From Amphritea sp. (GTDB lineage Bacteria > Pseudomonadota > Gammaproteobacteria > Pseudomonadales > Balneatricaceae): a DNA stretch of 13,657 bases. The notes under the pieces were generated by a model. That model saw only the letters and a list, made by a program, of their open reading frames with translations. It was not told the DNA's origin and searched no databases. The DNA lies in assembly GCA_018067325.1 (NCBI GenBank), contig JAGPUU010000438.1, forward strand, positions 1 to 13,657. The letters run 5' to 3'. A program made the translations under genes and the position numbers. Shown piece by piece: positions 159 through 13,657 of the stretch. Each line of letters starts with the position of its first letter. The stretch's first letter is position 1.

Positions 159-1016
159 ATGAGTATTACTGAGCAAAACTTAACAGATATTGTTGTATCC
201 ACTTTGAACTCCGATGACCCGCGACTCAATCAGGTGATGGAGAGTCTGATTCGCCACTTGCATGACTTTATTCGTGAGGTTGAGCCCAGTGATGAGGAGT
301 GGATGACAGGTATTCAGTACCTCACAGAAGTTGGGCAGATGTGTAACGATGTCCGTCAGGAATATATTCTGCTATCAGACACTCTCGGCGTTACCGTACT
401 GAAAGATAGCCTTAATAATAAAAAGCCTGAAGGTGCAACCGAGGTCTCAGTGCTGGGCCCATTTTATCGCGAAGGGGCTGAGGTGATGCCATTGGGCGCT
501 AGTATCTCTCGCGGAGAGAATGATGGTCAGCCCTGTGTTGTTCGTGGTCGGGTAACAGCCCCGGATGGGACGCCTATTGCAGGAGCTGTCATGGATGCCT
601 GGCAGGCGGCCAGTACAGGGTTCTACGAACAGCAGGATGAAAACCAACCAGAGATGAATTTGCGTGGTCGGTTTAAGACTGATGAAAACGGTTACTACCA
701 TTTTAAAACAGTTAAACCCAAAAACTACCCGATACCCGGTGATGGACCTGTTGGGAAAATGCTGGACGCGGTTGGTCGACATAATTACAGACCTGCCCAT
801 ATCCATTTCATCGTCTCAGCAGAAGGTCATGAGCCGGTGATTACTCAGTTCTTTGATGCTACGGATGAATATGTAACTAGCGATGCCGTGTTTGGTGTAA
901 AAGAGTCGCTGCTGGTGGACTTCCAGGAAGTCACCGATCCTGCGCAGGCTGCTGAACTTAATCTGCCGGTTGGTGGTTGGTTAGTGGAATTTAACTTTGG
1001 CCTTAATCCGGAATAA
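159..1016 (+). CDS. Intradiol ring-cleavage dioxygenase, hydroxyquinol 1,2-dioxygenase type
   Basis: A 285-residue soluble non-heme Fe(III) intradiol dioxygenase. An alpha-helical N-terminal dimerisation domain (about residues 1-95) precedes the beta-sandwich catalytic domain. All four iron ligands expected in the family are visible: Tyr156 (in STGFYEQQ), Tyr190 (in PKNYPIPGDGP), His214 and His216 (in RPAHIHF). The C-terminal stretch YVTSDAVFGVKESL and the length resemble hydroxyquinol 1,2-dioxygenases more than CatA-type catechol dioxygenases (about 310 residues), which carry a different sequence there. The expected reaction is hydroxyquinol + O2 to maleylacetate, which a reductase (not in the window) converts to 3-oxoadipate for the upstream thiolase. 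An AGGAG box lies 8 bp before the ATG. The gene sits 23 bp after the thiolase and 4 bp before the YCII gene, so it is probably in one operon with them. Catechol or a substituted catechol remains a possible substrate. Confidence 0.88.
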   Translation: MSITEQNLTDIVVSTLNSDDPRLNQVMESLIRHLHDFIREVEPSDEEWMTGIQYLTEVGQMCNDVRQEYILLSDTLGVTVLKDSLNNKKPEGATEVSVLGPFYREGAEVMPLGASISRGENDGQPCVVRGRVTAPDGTPIAGAVMDAWQAASTGFYEQQDENQPEMNLRGRFKTDENGYYHFKTVKPKNYPIPGDGPVGKMLDAVGRHNYRPAHIHFIVSAEGHEPVITQFFDATDEYVTSDAVFGVKESLLVDFQEVTDPAQAAELNLPVGGWLVEFNFGLNPE

Positions 1017-5117: not shown

Positions 5118-6035
5118 ATGTACTCACCGATCACTATAGATGCGCTCCGGACACTGGATGCGATTGACCGACGCCGTAGTTTTGCGGCTGCTGCCGAAGA
5201 GTTATACCGGGTTCCTTCCGCTATCTCTTATACCATCAGTAAGCTGGAAGAAGACTTGGGGGTAGAGCTGTTTGATCGTTCCAGGCGTAAGGCTGAACTG
5301 ACAGCAGTTGGCCGACTGATACTGGAGCAAGGGCGACAAATTTTGGTGGCAACCGAGGAGTTGACCGCGCTGGCAAAACAGACCGATGAAGGATGGGAAA
5401 CCGAGTTGCGGATCTGTATTGATAGTCTTATTAACTGTGAGCCAGTATATGACTTGATTGAACAGTTTCAGAAGCTTCAACCTCGTACAGAATTGCGTTT
5501 GACGGAGGAGGTGTTGGGTGGCAGTTGGGACGCTCTTAATTCCGAGCAGTGTGATCTGGTGATTGGCGCGGAAGGCGATCCACCGTCGCAGGGGTTTGGT
5601 ATTCATCTGCTTGGGCAGGTGGAGTTTGTGTTTGCTGTTTCGGCTAGTCATCCATTAACCGATATGCAGCAACCGATCTCGTTACAAGCGATTCAGGATT
5701 ATCCGACAGTGGTGGTAACAGATAGCTCCCGTTATCTTCCGGTCCGCTCCACGGGACTACTTGATGGTCGAAGTCGTATTGCGGTCTCTTCGATAGAACA
5801 CAAAATTGCTGCTCAAATAAGAGGCTTGGGGGTTGGCTACCTTCCTAAATTCAGGATTAAAAAAGAGTTAGAAGAGGGAACGTTGAAACAGCTAATGTTG
5901 GCGGAGACTCGTTCCCCCAGATCGATATCCATTGCCTGGCGAAATACGAGTAAAGGCAAGGGAGTGCAATGGTTTGTCAGTCAGCTTCGGCAGATGGTAT
6001 TTGATCAGGATTCTGGATTACAGCGACCTAAATAA
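5118..6035 (+). CDS. LysR-type transcriptional regulator
   Basis: A 305-residue LysR regulator. The N-terminal winged helix-turn-helix spans about residues 6-65, with the hallmark segments SFAAAAEELYRVPSAISYTI (21-40) and KLEEDLGVELFDRSRR (42-57). The remainder (about 90-295) is the two-lobed effector-binding domain. It is divergent from the DoxX-pirin-WrbA set and should control it and itself through the intergenic inverted repeats. The effector is unknown; a quinone or phenolic compound is the natural guess from the target genes. The start at 5118 fits the family N-terminus, but no Shine-Dalgarno sequence is visible before it, which suggests low or leader-dependent translation. This subgroup with the DALRTLDAIDRR opening is common beside DoxX/pirin genes. 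Confidence 0.93.
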   Translation: MYSPITIDALRTLDAIDRRRSFAAAAEELYRVPSAISYTISKLEEDLGVELFDRSRRKAELTAVGRLILEQGRQILVATEELTALAKQTDEGWETELRICIDSLINCEPVYDLIEQFQKLQPRTELRLTEEVLGGSWDALNSEQCDLVIGAEGDPPSQGFGIHLLGQVEFVFAVSASHPLTDMQQPISLQAIQDYPTVVVTDSSRYLPVRSTGLLDGRSRIAVSSIEHKIAAQIRGLGVGYLPKFRIKKELEEGTLKQLMLAETRSPRSISIAWRNTSKGKGVQWFVSQLRQMVFDQDSGLQRPK

Positions 6036-6102: not shown

Positions 6103-6939
6103 TTAGTGACTGGCAGGGAGTGAAAGAATTTCCCGGGCTTGAGCGGGCGTTGCAACGGTACGACCATATTCAGTGGTCAGTTCTGCAACTCTGGTAACTA
6201 ACTCTGCGTTGCTGCTAGCCAGACGGTCTTTATCAAATCGCAGATTATCCTCCAGACCTGTGCGGCAATGTCCGCCTAGTTCCAGCGCCCAGTTATTCAA
6301 CGTTAGTTGGTGGCGACCGATACCGGCAGCAGTCCAGGTAGCATCGGGTAACACCTTGTTAAGCTGCTCAATTTGGAATTTAAGTACTTCTTTATTGGCG
6401 GGTAAAATTCCTGGCATGCCCATAATGAACTGAACATGCACAGGGCTTTTCAGCAGCCCCTGTTTGACCATCTTTTCTACGTTATAGAGCATTGAAAGAT
6501 CGAAAGCTTCAATCTCTGGTTTGACGTCATACTCCAGCATCTTTTTTGCAAGCTCATCGATAAGCAAAGGATGGTTTTCATAGATCATCCCAGGAAAGTT
6601 AACCGATCCTGTCGAGAGTGATGCCATTTCAGGCCGGTGATGTAGCATGCCACCGCGTAGTTCGCTTTCACGTCCCCGTCCTCCGGTAGAAAACTGAACA
6701 ATCATGCCAGGGCAGTGTTTATTCACACCATTTTTGAAAGCTAGGAATCGTTCGGGATCTGATGAAGACTGGCCCTGATCACCACGCACATGTACATGGA
6801 CAATTGTCGCACCTGCTTCAAAAGCTTCCTGGGTTGACTCTATTTGTTCAGAGACTGAAATAGGGACGGCCGGGTTATCTTTTTTCTGTGGTAAAGATCC
6901 GGTAATGGCAACGGAAATGATACAGGGCTTGGTCATCAT
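6103..6939 (-). CDS. BKACE family beta-keto acid cleavage enzyme (DUF849)
   Basis: A 278-residue TIM-barrel Zn enzyme. The metal ligands known from the founding member Kce are in place: His48 and His50 (VHVHVR) and Glu230 (in TGLEDN). The catalytic Arg226 and the QFSTGG loop (residues 82-87) are also visible. The family condenses a beta-keto acid with acetyl-CoA and splits it to acetoacetate plus a shortened acyl-CoA. The N-terminal AITGSLPQ segment lacks the acidic residue that, as I recall, binds the amino group of 3-keto-5-aminohexanoate in Kce, so a non-amino substrate is likely. Given the aromatic pathway next door and the PcaR-like operators upstream, 3-oxoadipate is an attractive but unproven substrate. 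The start is either of two adjacent ATG codons (6939 or 6936). The gene appears monocistronic. Confidence 0.9.
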   Translation of the reverse strand: MMTKPCIISVAITGSLPQKKDNPAVPISVSEQIESTQEAFEAGATIVHVHVRGDQGQSSSDPERFLAFKNGVNKHCPGMIVQFSTGGRGRESELRGGMLHHRPEMASLSTGSVNFPGMIYENHPLLIDELAKKMLEYDVKPEIEAFDLSMLYNVEKMVKQGLLKSPVHVQFIMGMPGILPANKEVLKFQIEQLNKVLPDATWTAAGIGRHQLTLNNWALELGGHCRTGLEDNLRFDKDRLASSNAELVTRVAELTTEYGRTVATPAQAREILSLPASH

Positions 6940-6974: not shown

Positions 6975-7031
6975 GTTCGCCATACGAATTAAAGTTCGTT
7001 ATACGGATATTAGTTCGTAATGCGAACTAGG
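6975..7031. promoter_or_regulatory. Triple operator array, PcaR/IclR-like
   Basis: Three 15-bp sites begin at 6975, 6994 and 7013, an exact 19-bp period. They are GTTCG-CCATA-CGAAT, GTTCG-TTATA-CGGAT and GTTCG-TAATG-CGAAC; the third is a perfect inverted repeat. The pattern resembles the published PcaR site of Pseudomonas putida, GTTCGATAATCGCAC. Site 3 fills the promoter spacer, site 2 covers the predicted transcription start, and site 1 lies in the leader. An IclR-family regulator encoded elsewhere is the likely ligand-responsive factor. Confidence 0.75.
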
Positions 7032-7035
7032 TCAA
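7007..7035 (-). promoter_or_regulatory. Sigma70 promoter of the BKACE gene
   Basis: On the minus strand TTGACC (-35, 7035-7030) and TAATAT (-10, 7012-7007) are separated by exactly 17 bp. Transcription should start near position 7000, giving a leader of about 60 nt. The 15-bp perfect palindrome of operator site 3 occupies the spacer, so a bound regulator would contact polymerase or exclude it. Confidence 0.7.
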
Positions 7036-7469
7036 TAGGTGCCGCTCTCTTTTTTAAATCTGCGTGGGGGAAGGGTAAGGCCTGAATGAGTGATAAATTC
7101 AGGCTGCAGGAGTAGCTGATTATGATTCAGCCGGATTAAAACTGGTGTTACTAAGATTGCCTTAATGGGTAAGCGGGGCGCTTATTTAGGCAAGGATTCG
7201 AGTGGAGATCTTGTTCTCAACTAGTTGCTGTAAGGGATTTTGTCGACGCTGATGTTCAAAAATTATTTCCTGCATGTGAACATTCTGAACGGGCTATTTT
7301 GGATGAATCAGATGCAACTTAATGCCCGTTGCCATCTGCGGAAGTGCGAAGGAGTGCTGCATAGGTAAATAAAAGGTGCATTAACTTATTTTTAATCACA
7401 GCTCATCGTCTTATCAGCTATCATTGTGACGCTTTAATGTGGATAGAGACATCGAGAGAGTGACGGATC
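7036..7469. other. Intergenic region with two hairpins and a possible gene remnant
   Basis: No convincing gene was found. An 8-bp perfect stem (GCCTGAAT and ATTCAGGC, 7080-7104) and a 10-bp stem with one bulged C (7309-7338, CAGATG-CAAC pairing with GTTG-C-CATCTG) are present; neither is followed by a T run. A plus-strand frame free of stops at 7173-7322 encodes 49 residues of protein-like composition, including VRDFVDADVQKLFPACEH, but has no good start codon. The right end must contain the promoter of the next gene; I see no strong match to a -35/-10 pair. Confidence 0.5.
7173..7322 (+). pseudogene. Possible protein-coding remnant, unidentified
   Basis: A 49-codon stretch between stop codons, without an ATG or a ribosome binding site at its head. 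Its translation ends VRDFVDADVQKLFPACEH followed by SERAILDESDAT and a stop, which reads like the C-terminus of a real protein. I do not recognise the family. Its stop codon lies in the loop of the 7309-7338 hairpin. Chance occurrence of a frame this short is quite possible. Confidence 0.2.
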
Positions 7470-8228
7470 ATGACAGTGCAGTCTAATCAAGAAATAACCC
7501 CTAGCGTGAAAGGCTGGCTGAGCCGTGGCTGGCAGGATTTCAGGCGTACCTGGGTGATTAGCATGATGTTCAGCTCAATATTTCTACTAATCTCGTTGGT
7601 GGCATATTGGCAGTTGTTACAGCTCGATTTAGGCTTAGTGCTATATCCGTTTATTGCCGGCTTTATGGTGGTAGCACCATTGTTGGTAACCGGCTTTCAG
7701 CGGGTAGGGCGAATGCTGCATGAGGGGAAGCAGCCGGGCTTTCTCGACCTGTTAAAAGGGGTTAGAGAGACGACTCCCGGAATATTCTTTTTAACTTTTG
7801 TGCTGTGTATTTGTTATTTGATCTGGGTGACCGATGCGGTGGTTATCTATGGGATGTATTTTGGTGTCAAAGCGGTTCCCATCAATGCGCAATTACTGTC
7901 TGATCCGGTACTACGGGAAAGCCTGGTTTCCTATCTGATGTTTACTGGCCTGATGGGCTTTGTTATTGCGCAGATGGGCTTTATGGTTGGCGCGTTTTCA
8001 ATTCCTTTGATTATGCATCAGAAAATGAACTTTGTTGACGCGGTGTTTTCCAGCGTGGCGACCGTATGGCGGCATAAATTGCTAATGTTTCGCTGGGCGC
8101 TGTCATTAGCACTGCTCATGCTCACCACGCTCATTGTGGCTCTGCCTTTGCTGGTGGTTGTCTTACCTGTAACAGCGTACGCCAGTTATGCAGCCTATGT
8201 GGATCTGTTGAAACCTGCTGATAGCTAA
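7470..8228 (+). CDS. DUF2189-type integral membrane protein
   Basis: A 252-residue membrane protein of unknown function. A short cytoplasmic N-terminus with WLSRGWQDFRRTW (residues 17-29) precedes membrane segments at roughly 30-50, 57-78, 105-130, 150-182 and 205-240. The segment YPFIAGFMVVAPLLVTGFQRVGRMLHEGK (split over residues 59-87) is the clearest family hallmark of DUF2189 proteins. It has no obvious catalytic residues. The gene stands alone: a long non-coding region lies before it and a convergent acyltransferase gene after it. Only a weak GAGAG element precedes the ATG at a long distance (about 11 bp), so translation may be modest. Confidence 0.8.
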   Translation: MTVQSNQEITPSVKGWLSRGWQDFRRTWVISMMFSSIFLLISLVAYWQLLQLDLGLVLYPFIAGFMVVAPLLVTGFQRVGRMLHEGKQPGFLDLLKGVRETTPGIFFLTFVLCICYLIWVTDAVVIYGMYFGVKAVPINAQLLSDPVLRESLVSYLMFTGLMGFVIAQMGFMVGAFSIPLIMHQKMNFVDAVFSSVATVWRHKLLMFRWALSLALLMLTTLIVALPLLVVVLPVTAYASYAAYVDLLKPADS

Positions 8229-8283: not shown

Positions 8284-9693
8284 CTATAACTCGCCCAGTG
8301 AATTTCGGTAGTATTCAAACATTGCCCGGTGCTGACTATCTGCCTGAAACAAACCTTCTTCAACCTCAGTGATCATACCCCGCTTAGACAAGGTATAGAG
8401 CCCCTGTTCTAGTGCGTAATCTTCATCCTGTTTTGGCACCAGCATATAGCGTCCCTGTTTTCGAAGGCCGATAAATATTTCGTAACCTTTCACTTTAAGG
8501 TCAAGTTCTGAGACCGGTTGATCCAGGTTGTTGAGGAAAATGGCTGAGAGAATAGAGACCGGCAGAATTGGCAGGTGCTGTTCTATCTCCTGGGCGATAT
8601 CTTCTCCCAACTGACCGATTGCCTGTTTGCGTGCCGCGCTGTCACACTGGTTTAGATCGATGCCGTTCTTTTGCTGCCATTGTTGTAACGAGATCGGGTC
8701 ACCATAATTGACACAGGCATAACCGAACGGCTTGTGCTGATGGGGCAGCATGTGAGGCACTAACTGCAACAGGAACTTGCCAAATGAAAGTATGGAGTAA
8801 AACCGGCCCTTTTGTTTGAAGCCGTGTTCTTGATTGGCCAGTAGGGTTTTATCCTCAGGGATCTTGTCGTAATTCAGTGCGGTGGGGATAAAGACAATGT
8901 CTTTGCAGTTACCTTGTCCCATCGCTTTAGTGACATAGTTGAGCATTCCCAGCTTAAGTGGCTGCATCTTGCCATCCCGGCTTAATCCGCCTTCGATAAA
9001 CAGACCCTGTGGGATACAGTTACTAACCGCCAGCGAGACATAGCGCTCCAGCATTTTGCGGTACAGCGTGCTGCCGCTATCGCGCCGGATAATGTAAAAA
9101 CCGATCGCATGAAGCAATTGTTGAAACGGGAATCCGCGGGCCCACTCACCGGCGGAATAGGATATAGCCGCTTTGCGTGATGCCAGATAGATGAGGAAAA
9201 AAGGATCAAAATTGGAACGGTGATTGGAAACAATCACGATACAGCTGTTTGGATCGATATTGTCGTATTGCTTTTCAGCGCTGTAACCCACCTTCACCCA
9301 GTAAAGGAAACGTAAGAATCCCCGGGCTAACCAAAAGCCTAATCGGAAATAGAGCAGGACATTGAAGGAGGGTACAAGCTCTTCAGCATATTCGGATGCT
9401 CGCTTGTTTACTTCGATGGCGTCTGTGTCGCCGGTCCTGATCTCTTCGGCAATAGCAGCAATAACGTCCGGGTCACTGAGAAGCTTATCTATTAGTAGGC
9501 TTCGGCGACAATGGGTCTGGGGAGTGAATCCGTGGCTGAGTTTATCATCCAGAAAATGTGAGGTCTTGAGGGTACGCTTACGATAAAAACGTTTAAACCA
9601 GGGCGATAAAAAATAGTGGAAAAGACCGAGTCCTGCCAGTATTGCCAAGAGGAGAAACAACCACAGGGGTAGGTTTATCGTATCGTTGAACAT
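8284..9693 (-). CDS. PlsB-like glycerolipid acyltransferase (PlsC superfamily)
   Basis: A 469-residue membrane-bound acyltransferase. A membrane anchor spans about residues 8-29. The acyltransferase blocks occur in the order known for glycerol-3-phosphate and lysophosphatidate acyltransferases: block I NHRSNFD with catalytic His158 and Asp163, block II GFYIIRRD (198-205), block III FIEGGLSRDGK (232-242) and block IV FIPTALNYDKI (268-278). The EGG-SR-GK form of block III resembles PlsB, but the protein is far shorter than the about 800-residue E. coli PlsB. The C-terminal 150 residues are not recognised. The acceptor may be glycerol-3-phosphate or another lipid; unsure. AAGGA precedes the ATG by 7 bp. 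It lies 30 bp downstream of the alpha/beta hydrolase gene and should be co-transcribed with it. Confidence 0.87.
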   Translation of the reverse strand: MFNDTINLPLWLFLLLAILAGLGLFHYFLSPWFKRFYRKRTLKTSHFLDDKLSHGFTPQTHCRRSLLIDKLLSDPDVIAAIAEEIRTGDTDAIEVNKRASEYAEELVPSFNVLLYFRLGFWLARGFLRFLYWVKVGYSAEKQYDNIDPNSCIVIVSNHRSNFDPFFLIYLASRKAAISYSAGEWARGFPFQQLLHAIGFYIIRRDSGSTLYRKMLERYVSLAVSNCIPQGLFIEGGLSRDGKMQPLKLGMLNYVTKAMGQGNCKDIVFIPTALNYDKIPEDKTLLANQEHGFKQKGRFYSILSFGKFLLQLVPHMLPHQHKPFGYACVNYGDPISLQQWQQKNGIDLNQCDSAARKQAIGQLGEDIAQEIEQHLPILPVSILSAIFLNNLDQPVSELDLKVKGYEIFIGLRKQGRYMLVPKQDEDYALEQGLYTLSKRGMITEVEEGLFQADSQHRAMFEYYRNSLGEL

Positions 9694-9723
9694 GACGAAG
9701 TCCTTGAGCAGGTAATACGGCTA

Positions 9724-11127
9724 TTACTGTGCATTATCCTGTTTCTCCAATTGACTAAAGACTGCTCGCAGACGCCAGAGGGGCTGTTGATCCCGGATTA
9801 ATCCCAGCGGAATAGTAAAGTGGCCGCGGTGGTAAACAAAACGGTTCTGAGACGGCACCTGCCAGCTGTCCATATGAGCTTGTCCTGAGGCAAATGGGGT
9901 GACGATATCTTCAGAGCCCATGACGCTAATAATTTGTTCGGGCGGCATTGCCGGTGTATCTTCCGGATCCAGTTTATTCAACCATTCTCGTGCCAGCTCT
10001 TTGTTCCAGCCCTGATCACGCAGCGCATCGGAAAGGTGCCACAGGTCAGACAATGCGCCATCCAGAGAAGCTTCAGCGATATGCGTACAGTGGGTTACCA
10101 TAAACAGAGCATCGGGTTGCAATCTTTCGGGCCAGGTTTTCGCCCTGACAGCGATTGCTTTGGCGGTTTGTGCTCCCAGACTGCTGCCACCAATGGCCAC
10201 TGGACCGCTACTGGTGTTTCGGCACCAGTCCATCAAAACTGCCCATTCTCGGGTTTGTGCTGCGAGAAATTCGATCATGCCAACCGGCGCGGTTGACAGT
10301 AAACGTTCGCCGCCGAAGTGCCCGGGTATTACTCGTCGTCCATGCCAGGGCGCTTCGGGGCGTACAACCCGAATGCCCATGCTGGTTAAGGCATGCACCT
10401 CATCAATCAGGTTATGAAAATGATCAAATTCAACGAAAATACCATGGCCGAAAATCAGTGTGGGAGGATTTATTACTCCGACTGGTTCATGCACCCGGGC
10501 ATAGGCCAGATCATTCATATCTTCTGAAGGAGATTGAAAGCGTATCCAGTAATCCCGGCCGCTAGGTACTGGAATCGAACGAGACTCTTCTACTTCTGGG
10601 AAATGATCGGGCAAAGCAAAGGTTGCCTCAAAGGTGGCCTGATCAGGGTATTTGGAATGGGTTTCTTCTGGGGTTGGCGGACGTAAGGCTATCGATTGTT
10701 TAACCATCTTTCTGAAGGGAGTGAACTGCTTACGCATCATCAGATATTCGGTGCGGGTATCAAGACGCATCTCTTCTGCAATTAACAGGCGTTGTTCAGT
10801 GACAGTCTCATCACCAAACAGATATGCCTGCCAGACCTGTTCGGTCATCAGGTTTTTTAACCGGGCATGTTCAAAGTTGGCCAATACCCGTTTGGCTTTT
10901 TGACAATGTTTTGGTGAAGGGGCTATGTCGGCTTCGACACAGAAGCTATCCACTGATCCTTCAGCCGCACGAGCAGACGCCCAGAGTCGGGAAAGAGGGA
11001 AGAACCAGTGCTCAAGGATCCACAGGATCAAACGGTCAAGCCAGGGACGGGTGAGAAGTGGACTCAGAGAGGAGCGTAAAAAGCGCATCACTCGATCTGA
11101 GGCGATATGCCGGGGTCGTTTTATCAT
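9724..11127 (-). CDS. Alpha/beta hydrolase family protein
   Basis: A 467-residue protein from the ATG at 11127; a TTG six bases upstream would add two residues. Numbering here includes those two. The C-terminal half is an alpha/beta hydrolase fold: an oxyanion-type HG motif (LIFGHGIF, 227-233), the nucleophile elbow GGSSLGA (Ser318), the acid GSEDIVTPF (Asp409) and the histidine YHRGHFTIP (His438). The N-terminal ~180 residues are helical and carry no recognised domain; residues about 28-52 are hydrophobic or amphipathic and may bind membrane. No signal peptide is clear. Pairing with an acyltransferase suggests a lipase, esterase or lysophospholipase role in lipid turnover, which is inference. 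The ribosome binding site is weak. The overall layout resembles the ABHD18-like group but I cannot confirm that. Confidence 0.85.
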   Translation of the reverse strand: MIKRPRHIASDRVMRFLRSSLSPLLTRPWLDRLILWILEHWFFPLSRLWASARAAEGSVDSFCVEADIAPSPKHCQKAKRVLANFEHARLKNLMTEQVWQAYLFGDETVTEQRLLIAEEMRLDTRTEYLMMRKQFTPFRKMVKQSIALRPPTPEETHSKYPDQATFEATFALPDHFPEVEESRSIPVPSGRDYWIRFQSPSEDMNDLAYARVHEPVGVINPPTLIFGHGIFVEFDHFHNLIDEVHALTSMGIRVVRPEAPWHGRRVIPGHFGGERLLSTAPVGMIEFLAAQTREWAVLMDWCRNTSSGPVAIGGSSLGAQTAKAIAVRAKTWPERLQPDALFMVTHCTHIAEASLDGALSDLWHLSDALRDQGWNKELAREWLNKLDPEDTPAMPPEQIISVMGSEDIVTPFASGQAHMDSWQVPSQNRFVYHRGHFTIPLGLIRDQQPLWRLRAVFSQLEKQDNAQ

Positions 11128-13182: not shown

Positions 13183-13657
13183 TCAGCTTACGCTATTCTC
13201 GCTGGAGTCTGTGTCGCTTACAGGCGCTTCATTAACCGCAGTGGTACGCGGATCATTTGGTGCCCGACGTGTGCGGCGCTGACGTGGTGCTGCAGCTTCA
13301 GGGTTGGCAGCAACAGGTGCTTCGCGACGAGGAGCTGGAGTCACGACTACTTCATCAGAAGCAACAACGGGTGCGGTAGACTCTGGACGCTTACGAACAC
13401 GACGTCCGGCTGGCCGAGGCTGTTCAGTCTCAGTGGCAGGCGTTTCAACAACAGGAGCTTCAACCACTGGCGCTTCAACCACCGACGCTTCAACTACCGG
13501 CGCTTCAACAACAGGCGCTTCAACGACTGGCGCTTCAGCTACTGGCGCTTCAACCACTGGAGCTTCAACCACTGGAGCTTCAACAACTGGAGTTTCAACT
13601 ACAGGCGCTTCAACAACAGGCGCTTTAGCTACTGGAGCTTGAGCCACAGGCGCTTCA
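13183..13657 (-). CDS. rne: C-terminal tail of ribonuclease E (partial, 5' part outside window)
   Basis: About 158 codons of the 3' end of a gene entering from the right edge; the catalytic domain is not seen. The protein is low-complexity: a Pro/Ala/Val/Glu pentad repeat, then an Arg-rich stretch (GRRVRKRPES), then RQRRTRRAPNDPR near the end and an acidic Ser-rich terminus. The RRAPNDPR motif and the convergent position next to murB match RNase E of Pseudomonas-like gammaproteobacteria. Tails of this sort are disordered scaffolds of the RNA degradosome, with Arg-rich segments contacting RNA. An unrelated PAV-rich basic protein is the alternative. The frame continues past 13647 to the window edge, so no start lies here. 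Confidence 0.83.
   Translation of the reverse strand, partial: EAPVAQAPVAKAPVVEAPVVETPVVEAPVVEAPVVEAPVAEAPVVEAPVVEAPVVEASVVEAPVVEAPVVETPATETEQPRPAGRRVRKRPESTAPVVASDEVVVTPAPRREAPVAANPEAAAPRQRRTRRAPNDPRTTAVNEAPVSDTDSSENSVS
13439..13657 (-). repeat. rne: 15-bp tandem repeat coding for a VVEAP pentad
   Basis: About 14 to 15 units of a degenerate 15-bp repeat (plus-strand form close to GGCGCTTCAACCACT) run to the window edge. Each encodes five residues, mostly VVEAP with variants VVETP, VAEAP, VVEAS and VAKAP. Third-position differences are scattered, so copies are not all recent. The period is a multiple of three, so copy-number change keeps the frame. Confidence 0.92.

Follow-up and report, generated by a model that had tools for sequence, protein, structure and literature searches.

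Candidate PcaR operators in the promoter of a predicted BKACE gene of Amphritea

Can a regulator of the metabolism of β-ketoadipate, a product of aromatic breakdown, namely the IclR-family protein PcaR, have a BKACE gene among its targets? The question is raised by a stretch of 13,657 nucleotides from the marine bacterium Amphritea sp., here termed the window, in which three similar sites are built into the promoter of a BKACE gene. The features concerned, in window coordinates, are listed below.

159..1016, forward strand: intradiol dioxygenase (Pfam Dioxygenase_C/N; functional context)
5118..6035, forward strand: LysR-type regulator, convergent with BKACE (Pfam); a rival candidate binder
6103..6939, reverse strand: BKACE, 278 aa, predicted 3-oxoadipate:acetyl-CoA acetyltransferase (Pfam and NCBIfam)
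6975..6989, reverse strand: O3 candidate operator, GTTCGCCATACGAAT in forward-strand letters; second of the tandem pair
6994..7008, reverse strand: O2 candidate operator, GTTCGTTATACGGAT in forward-strand letters; first of the tandem pair
7007..7012, reverse strand: -10 hexamer TAATAT (promoter scan; same in the relative G011)
7013..7027, reverse strand: O1 candidate operator, GTTCGTAATGCGAAC in forward-strand letters; occupies the -35/-10 spacer
7030..7035, reverse strand: -35 hexamer TTGACC with a 17-bp spacer (promoter scan; same in G011)

The BKACE protein matches the Pfam BKACE family over its full length (316 bits) and passes the NCBIfam model NF053568, 3-oxoadipate:acetyl-CoA acetyltransferase (463.6 bits; equivalog cut-off 350). 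Its orthologues show 99% identity in Amphritea sp. OB2, a close relative (G011), and 67% identity in genome G018. As 3-oxoadipate is β-ketoadipate, the predicted substrate of the enzyme is the reported effector of PcaR (PMC12455658, PMC12543098). The intradiol dioxygenase falls short of the NCBIfam cut-offs for catechol and chlorocatechol dioxygenases and is presumably a hydroxyquinol 1,2-dioxygenase; its G011 orthologue is in the same cluster as a hydroquinone dioxygenase gene. Elsewhere in the window, the right flank of BKACE (7040-8228) is a DUF2189 membrane-protein gene, and differs from that of G011, where a LysR gene is divergent from BKACE (C11:152230-153600). A reverse-strand reading frame at 13183-13647 is rich in PVVEAPVVEA-type tandem repeats, and the first ~135 bases resemble, by eye, the end of a PcaF-type thiolase gene.

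The three sites are each 15 bp in length and GTTCG-N5-CGAAC-like, and their starts are exactly 19 bp apart, precisely as first noted from the sequence. O1, described in the original prediction as a perfect palindrome that fills the 17-bp spacer of TTGACC/TAATAT, does match at 10 of 10 arm bases, its central five bases being asymmetrical. It conforms fully to the GTNCG-N5-CGNAC palindrome of a PcaR operator, and the departures from GTTCG-N5-CGAAC are two arm bases in O2 and one in O3. O2 runs from the final two positions of the -10 hexamer across the predicted start point. Transcription is inferred to start near 7000, about seven bases after the -10 box, which would place O2 at about -8 to +7 and O3 at about +12 to +26. 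The promoter scan on the BKACE strand finds 9 of 12 consensus bases here, but this is one of 3 promoter-like sites in 601 scanned bases, against 1.3 (sd 1.3) in shuffles, and the scan alone is therefore weak evidence.

The array was compared with chance by a search of the whole window, and of 1000 dinucleotide shuffles, for equally spaced sites, with periods between 17 and 24 allowed. Of 30 arm positions, the window's best triple mismatches at 3, and the best per shuffle always at 8 or more; the best pair has 2 mismatches, whereas 3 were attained in 2/1000 shuffles and 2 in 0/1000. The three-site array is far beyond chance expectation. All 30 array arm bases are identical in G011, with two central O1 bases changed. 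From the -35 box through the array 65 of 67 columns are identical between the two genomes, and 121 of 150 just upstream. The 19-bp period was at first thought unusual. However, Suvorova and Gelfand (2021, PMC8222616), in a survey of 94 orthologous groups of IclR regulators, report tandem sites as common, at distances of 18-22 nt and mostly 19-21. The centre-to-centre distances of 19 and 19 fall inside this range, and the period thus needs no special explanation.

Pfam detects two IclR proteins in the window's genome (G000, 93% complete). The product of C3:322-1104 reaches 355.8 bits with TIGR02431 (PcaR/PcaU/PobR; cut-off 284.75) and is termed PcaR here. The second, on contig C16, was rejected as PcaR at 134.4 bits, below this cut-off, and GTTCG-N5-CGNAY has no match anywhere on that contig. 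Between pcaR and the divergent gene hapC, at C3:266-280, is the sequence GTTCGCTTAGCGAAC, found at the same place in G011. This promoter has a perfect palindrome and, 20 bp off, a half-site-like match in which the right arm alone is good. With the full-length G011 copy as query, the gene divergent from pcaR matches the hydroquinone dioxygenase small subunit (PDB 5m21, 4zxa).

The pcaR and BKACE genes sit on separate contigs in the fragmented G000 assembly, and their linkage is taken from G011, where a stretch of about 21 kb contains the porin, pcaR, the hydroquinone/hydroxyquinol genes and BKACE. The cluster comprises the following.

131 to 152 kb, one contig of G011: porin, pcaR, hapC, putative hapD (named from position), aldehyde dehydrogenase, CoA-transferase pair, Fe-dependent dehydrogenase, ABC-transporter-like frames (the binding protein alone was scanned), PcaF-type thiolase, intradiol dioxygenase, further genes, BKACE

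The Fe-dependent dehydrogenase is presumably a maleylacetate reductase. A cluster of these families probably makes β-ketoadipate from hydroquinone or hydroxyquinol. CoA-transferase and thiolase genes are thus also present alongside BKACE. The CoA-transferase pair is CoA_trans by Pfam and falls below the pcaI and pcaJ family cut-offs, so that its substrate is assigned from context; its sizes presumably recall the CatI/CatJ type. The G011 thiolase gene (C11:144125-145327; about 9125-10333 in locus L065) has one in-frame stop, the first 345 residues of the same thiolase are open on contig C225 of G000, and a second, stop-free copy is found elsewhere in both genomes. One motif is present at three promoters of the cluster, namely those of BKACE (three sites), the porin (two sites with a period of 19, in both G000 and G011) and pcaR/hapC.

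In the whole genome the exact sequence GTTCG-N5-CGAAC occurs at 8 places, and the reversed control pattern at 0. Two of the 8 are the BKACE and pcaR/hapC promoters. The other six are found just past the ends of reading frames (G000 C2:5151, C311:4229 and 4269, C321:10657, C374:14941 and C467:1878). Five of them share the flank GTCACAAA after the palindrome, the C2 copy being divergent. A tRNA origin was considered for these six and rejected; they look like copies of a dispersed repeat. The same palindromes occur in G011, and the probable repeat confounds naive motif scans. A G011 motif site at C11:167501 is inside a reading frame and hence was not counted as an operator.

Arrays, defined as two sites with a 19-bp period and up to 3 mismatches in 20, and PcaR, at E<=1e-40, were searched for in 57 related genomes. 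PcaR is present in 9, an array in 10 and both in 8, i.e., an array in 8/9 PcaR genomes against 2/48 without PcaR (Fisher p 2.4e-7). Without the window's genome these figures are 7/8 against 2/48 (p 1.2e-6). The reversed control pattern was found in 6/57 genomes and shows no association with PcaR. Among the exceptions, G008 and G020 have an array without PcaR, and no array was found in G055, a PcaR genome in which pcaR is near a contig end. The PcaR proteins of G003, G021, G033, G035, G043, G054 and G055 pass TIGR02431 (288-345 bits). Additional arrays distant from pcaR are found in G033 (two) and G043 (one).

Across the class, 16 of 274 genomes have an array, 7 have PcaR and 3 have both. Without G000, an array is present in 2/6 PcaR genomes against 13/267 without PcaR (p 0.037), both of these arrays being no more than 0.35 kb from pcaR. 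As 23/274 genomes show the reversed control pattern, single array matches at this stringency are mostly background in this sample. In G003, G021, G033, G035, G043, G054, G163 and G226 the nearest array lies 68 bp to 2.8 kb from pcaR, and such positions are better evidence than the co-occurrence counts. The original suggestion of PcaR-like operators, IclR control and a β-ketoadipate link gains support from a TIGR02431 PcaR with the motif at its own promoter, from the NF053568 call for BKACE and from the arrays that accompany pcaR in related genomes.

The surroundings of pcaR were compared in seven genomes. In G021, G033, G035 and G054, CoA-transferase genes are directly downstream of arrays, with subunit A 59-69% identical to that of the G011 pair, and PcaF-type thiolase frames are found in the compared stretches. 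In G003 the array is directly upstream of a fused CoA-transferase gene, followed by pcaF; the fused protein passes both the pcaI and pcaJ cut-offs and is the sole one to do so. G043 has a CoA-transferase-like frame about 2.7 kb beyond the array. The CoA-transferases with an array at their promoter probably serve the step that BKACE can replace.

The position of these arrays relative to the promoter recurs. The array starts +1 to +3 nt past the final base of the -10 box in G021, G033, G035, G043 and G054 (-35 TTGACA or TTGACG). By the same measure, both the array in the Amphritea porin promoter and O2 of the BKACE promoter are at -1. O2 thus has the offset of the porin array and is within 4 nt of the other arrays that have a promoter at their edge. 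Nine arrays were tested for such an edge promoter with single-base shuffles of the 60 bases upstream. The p values are 0.0002 to 0.0095 for 7 of the 9, with 0.0070 for BKACE; G003 gives p 0.11, a weak match, and no edge promoter is present at the second G035 array of this set. The porin promoter has 11/12 consensus bases against 9/12 for BKACE. Judged from these positions, the O2-O3 pair is the counterpart of the tandem pair that recurs beside the -10 box elsewhere, and the spacer site O1, common to the window and G011, is an addition.

The sites, their spacing and promoter overlap, the regulator, the protein families, and the linkage and co-occurrence of arrays with pcaR are read in the sequence; the binding, the effector, the enzyme activity, the sign of the control and the role of O1 are inferred. 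It is fairly likely that the array consists of operators of the strain's own PcaR, and that BKACE belongs to its regulon, being repressed by PcaR and relieved by β-ketoadipate. Besides the BKACE promoter, the regulon of PcaR (G000:C3:322-1104) would take in those of the porin and of the divergent pcaR and hapC genes, the latter for hydroquinone ring cleavage. When there is no inducer, PcaR dimers on O2 and O3 would block RNA polymerase by occupying the DNA from the end of the -10 hexamer, across the start point, to about base 26 of the transcript; a third dimer at O1, in the -35/-10 spacer, may make the block tighter. β-Ketoadipate made by the hydroquinone/hydroxyquinol pathway would then be bound by PcaR, which would release or rearrange, and BKACE would be made. 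The enzyme is predicted to convert β-ketoadipate and acetyl-CoA to acetoacetate and succinyl-CoA, and would be a single-enzyme alternative to the CoA-transferase and thiolase.

Two dimers seated on the start point, just downstream of promoter elements close to consensus, would by their position have the geometry of a repressor. P. putida PcaR is reported to repress its native promoter PcaO, and a box downstream of the -10 can repress (PMC12455658). In Ralstonia, transposon fitness data and a deletion are reported to show loss-of-repressor behaviour of PcaR at a β-ketoadipate operon (PMC12543098). In hybrid promoters, upstream boxes activated, and a P. stutzeri box downstream of the -10 repressed, more so with succinate, but a P. 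putida box downstream of the -10 still activated (PMC12455658). The published box-position rule is therefore not clean, as the two boxes downstream of the -10 differ in sign. A pcaR mutant of P. stutzeri A1501 is reported not to grow on 4-hydroxybenzoate or benzoate, as expected for an activator (PMC2907835). Repression is favoured by the geometry and the repressor reports; set against these is the P. stutzeri mutant, and activation through O1 is accordingly the main rival.

By this rival explanation, PcaR activates BKACE mainly via O1 by re-aligning a suboptimal promoter, and O2 and O3 limit or fine-tune expression. The P. stutzeri phenotype agrees with it, as do the induction of P. putida pca genes by β-ketoadipate together with PcaR and the activation obtained with a P. 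putida box between the -35 and -10 in the hybrid promoter PpHP2 (PMC12455658). The BKACE promoter, weaker than that of the porin, is also consistent with a need for activation. However, what the genomes have in common is the pair beyond the -10, mostly with a near-consensus -35 that should need no activator, and control mainly by activation appears unlikely, although it merits attention.

A second rival has a LysR-type regulator as the binder. TTCG-N5-CGAA satisfies T-N11-A as well, and LysR genes adjoin BKACE, one convergent with it in the window and another divergent from it in G011. The LysR type of the window (E<=1e-60) is associated with arrays (6/11 vs 4/46, p 0.0019), in a scoring that covered 41 LysR candidates in many genomes and may have misses. 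This association is weaker than that of PcaR, however, and G003, G035 and G043 have arrays near pcaR with no match to this LysR type. The arrays sit beside pcaR genes, and the divergent LysR gene of G011 is absent next to BKACE in the window. A pair abutting the -10 box is also an atypical position for LysR activators; the sites fit T-N11-A and do not fit the activator position. For a similar Burkholderia xenovorans sequence, GTTCGCTAAACGAAT, the authors proposed a LysR regulator (PMC3572157). This sequence, from strain LB400 upstream of a gene called pcaR, fits the IclR pattern GTTCG-N5-CGAAY equally well. Binding by a LysR regulator is quite improbable. That the array is chance or decaying sequence with no regulatory role, as the many distant BKACE orthologues without an array might suggest, is scarcely credible in view of the shuffle test, the unchanged arm bases in G011 and the recurrence at functionally matching promoters.

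Control of BKACE by PcaR through such an array was also considered as a general property of BKACE genes, and rejected, since most distant BKACE loci are without the array. Conservation upstream of orthologues, by which the original prediction was to be judged, is thus seen in one close orthologue (G011) and is lacking in many distant ones, which have no pcaR nearby or have other promoters. G018, with the order pcaH-pcaG-BKACE-CoA-transferase, has no PcaR at E<=1e-40 and no 19-bp array; the Marinobacterium loci L072 and L082 resemble it in having pcaH, pcaG and BKACE, then CoA-transferase genes. In the class-wide sample, PcaR is likewise unmatched in the four other genomes whose BKACE match is strong (E<=1e-90).

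Named BKACE loci were compared for the best 80 of at least 579 confirmed, and several of the 80 are incomplete. An IclR gene 36-39% identical to Amphritea PcaR is found in 11 of these 80, a more distant one (23-31%) in 11 more, and no IclR match above 60 bits in the compared stretch of the remaining 58, which include L067 solely because its pcaR lies further off. Ten of the first 11 are Burkholderiaceae, in which the IclR gene is transcribed away from the BKACE side; the eleventh, L110, is labelled Mesoflavibacter, a label taken as given. The Burkholderiaceae proteins score 254-268 bits (6 of 10 tested, five as the tblastn-matched part), below the TIGR02431 cut-off, and are therefore called PcaR-like.

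Five of these loci (L092, L098, L100, L105 and L111) have a pair of GTGCG-N5-CGCAC-like sites with a 21-bp period, ahead of BKACE or of a preceding frame judged by eye to be transporter-like. In all five, a TTGYYC-17-TATTCT promoter lies 19 nt downstream of the end of the pair. In L089 the 21-bp pair is present and the same rule finds no promoter of this type; in L070 the pair is on the pcaR side and its promoter match is weak, and in L078 it is far downstream. Over the 80 loci, 9 pairs have the 21-bp distance, against 3 with the reversed motif, but other distances too exceed the control (7 at 23 bp, 6 at 28 bp; 49 against 23 in total); several of the Burkholderiaceae species are closely related, and their pairs are not independent events. 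About 18 nt ahead of the first tandem site, the same five loci have a conserved GGTGCAAACCC (GGTGCTAACCC in L092), possibly an additional half-site of the kind known from three-box IclR operators.

Other elements are seen before BKACE in other groups. In an alignment of twelve Caballeronia loci, the element GTACTAGTTAGTT precedes BKACE in 10, L086 has it with one change and L113 is without it. In the form GTACTAGTTAGTTnAAAT, it lies roughly 50-120 bp upstream of BKACE in L086, L090, L093-L095, L097, L102, L103, L106, L108 and L109. Its conservation suggests another regulator there. A lone GTTCGTACGACGAAT site occurs about 190 bp upstream in four of the twelve loci (L097, L102, L103 and L109), and of these only L109 adds a weak partner at 20 bp; sites of this type are thus not altogether missing there. 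In L114, L116, L118, L119, L122 and L130 (Polynucleobacter and a beta proteobacterium), an IclR gene at about 9170-9970 is directly before BKACE on the same strand. It is 27-29% identical to Amphritea PcaR, and the L114 copy is below the TIGR02431 and BhcR cut-offs.

Perhaps the PcaR family was wired to BKACE at least twice and with opposite geometries, a reading put forward tentatively and with more doubt than confidence. Amphritea and its order would have a 19-bp operator pair abutting the -10 box, in a repression geometry, both at CoA-transferase promoters and at BKACE, where a spacer operator is added. The Burkholderiaceae would have a 21-bp pair upstream of the -35, in an activation geometry, with a PcaR-like IclR gene nearby. 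If this is so, a regulator family follows the metabolic step and not the gene when an unrelated enzyme replaces or doubles it, and the sign of control would be predictable from the period and placement of the operators.

How does the locus compare with known systems? The P. putida PcaR regulon (operator GTTCGATAATCGCAC) is reported to share with it an IclR-family PcaR, GTTCG-N5-CG[AC]AC half-sites, an operator inside the promoter and genes that handle β-ketoadipate (PMC12455658, PMC8222616). The P. putida targets are pcaIJ, pcaF and pcaBDC, whereas the Amphritea target is BKACE. The Amphritea promoter also differs in its three sites with a 19-bp period, two of which extend from the -10 box into the transcript, and in a pathway apparently fed by hydroquinone/hydroxyquinol genes. 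The PcaR motif of C. glutamicum, GTTCGC-N3-GCGAAC, fits the palindrome of the Amphritea pcaR promoter (PMC8222616). Relative to the tandem IclR operators described in the same survey, the difference is that three sites are in register at one promoter; COG3246 is unnamed in the main text of that survey, to which the comparison was confined. Acinetobacter baylyi PcaU/PobR likewise has a three-part operator for a regulator of the PcaR/PcaU/PobR type, but with a palindrome and one half-site in place of the three whole palindromes at BKACE (PMC8222616). The Amphritea pcaR/hapC promoter, with its palindrome and half-site-like match, looks nearer to this three-box operator.

In Methylobacterium, as in the prediction made here, a BKACE termed 'kce' has been proposed to use β-ketoadipate and acetyl-CoA (PMC8963497, PMC12379598). 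The homologue is reported in pca operons without pcaIJ and pcaF (PMC8963497); these two papers, citing Bastard et al. 2014, refer to it as BKACE group G4, and neither main text contains the terms PcaR and IclR. Amphritea, unlike these operons, also has CoA-transferase and thiolase genes.

CatM and BenM are LysR-type regulators. In Ralstonia eutropha H16, a COG3246 gene, predicted as a β-ketoadipate enzyme, is likewise placed under a pathway regulator, the difference being that this is of the CatM/BenM type and belongs to the catechol branch (PMC6449761). This predicted control is the nearest precedent. No report of IclR or PcaR control of BKACE was found in the open-access literature searched, and the PcaR wiring of BKACE is probably unreported. 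The components are familiar and do not make a new kind of system; within the literature covered, what is new is the target and the three-site layout. The array would be independent regulatory evidence that this BKACE group acts on β-ketoadipate in vivo, and would show a pathway regulator that covers an alternative enzyme for the same step. The operator pair directly after the -10 box would also provide a testable rule for repression versus activation by the PcaR family, a matter left open in a recent biosensor paper (PMC12455658).
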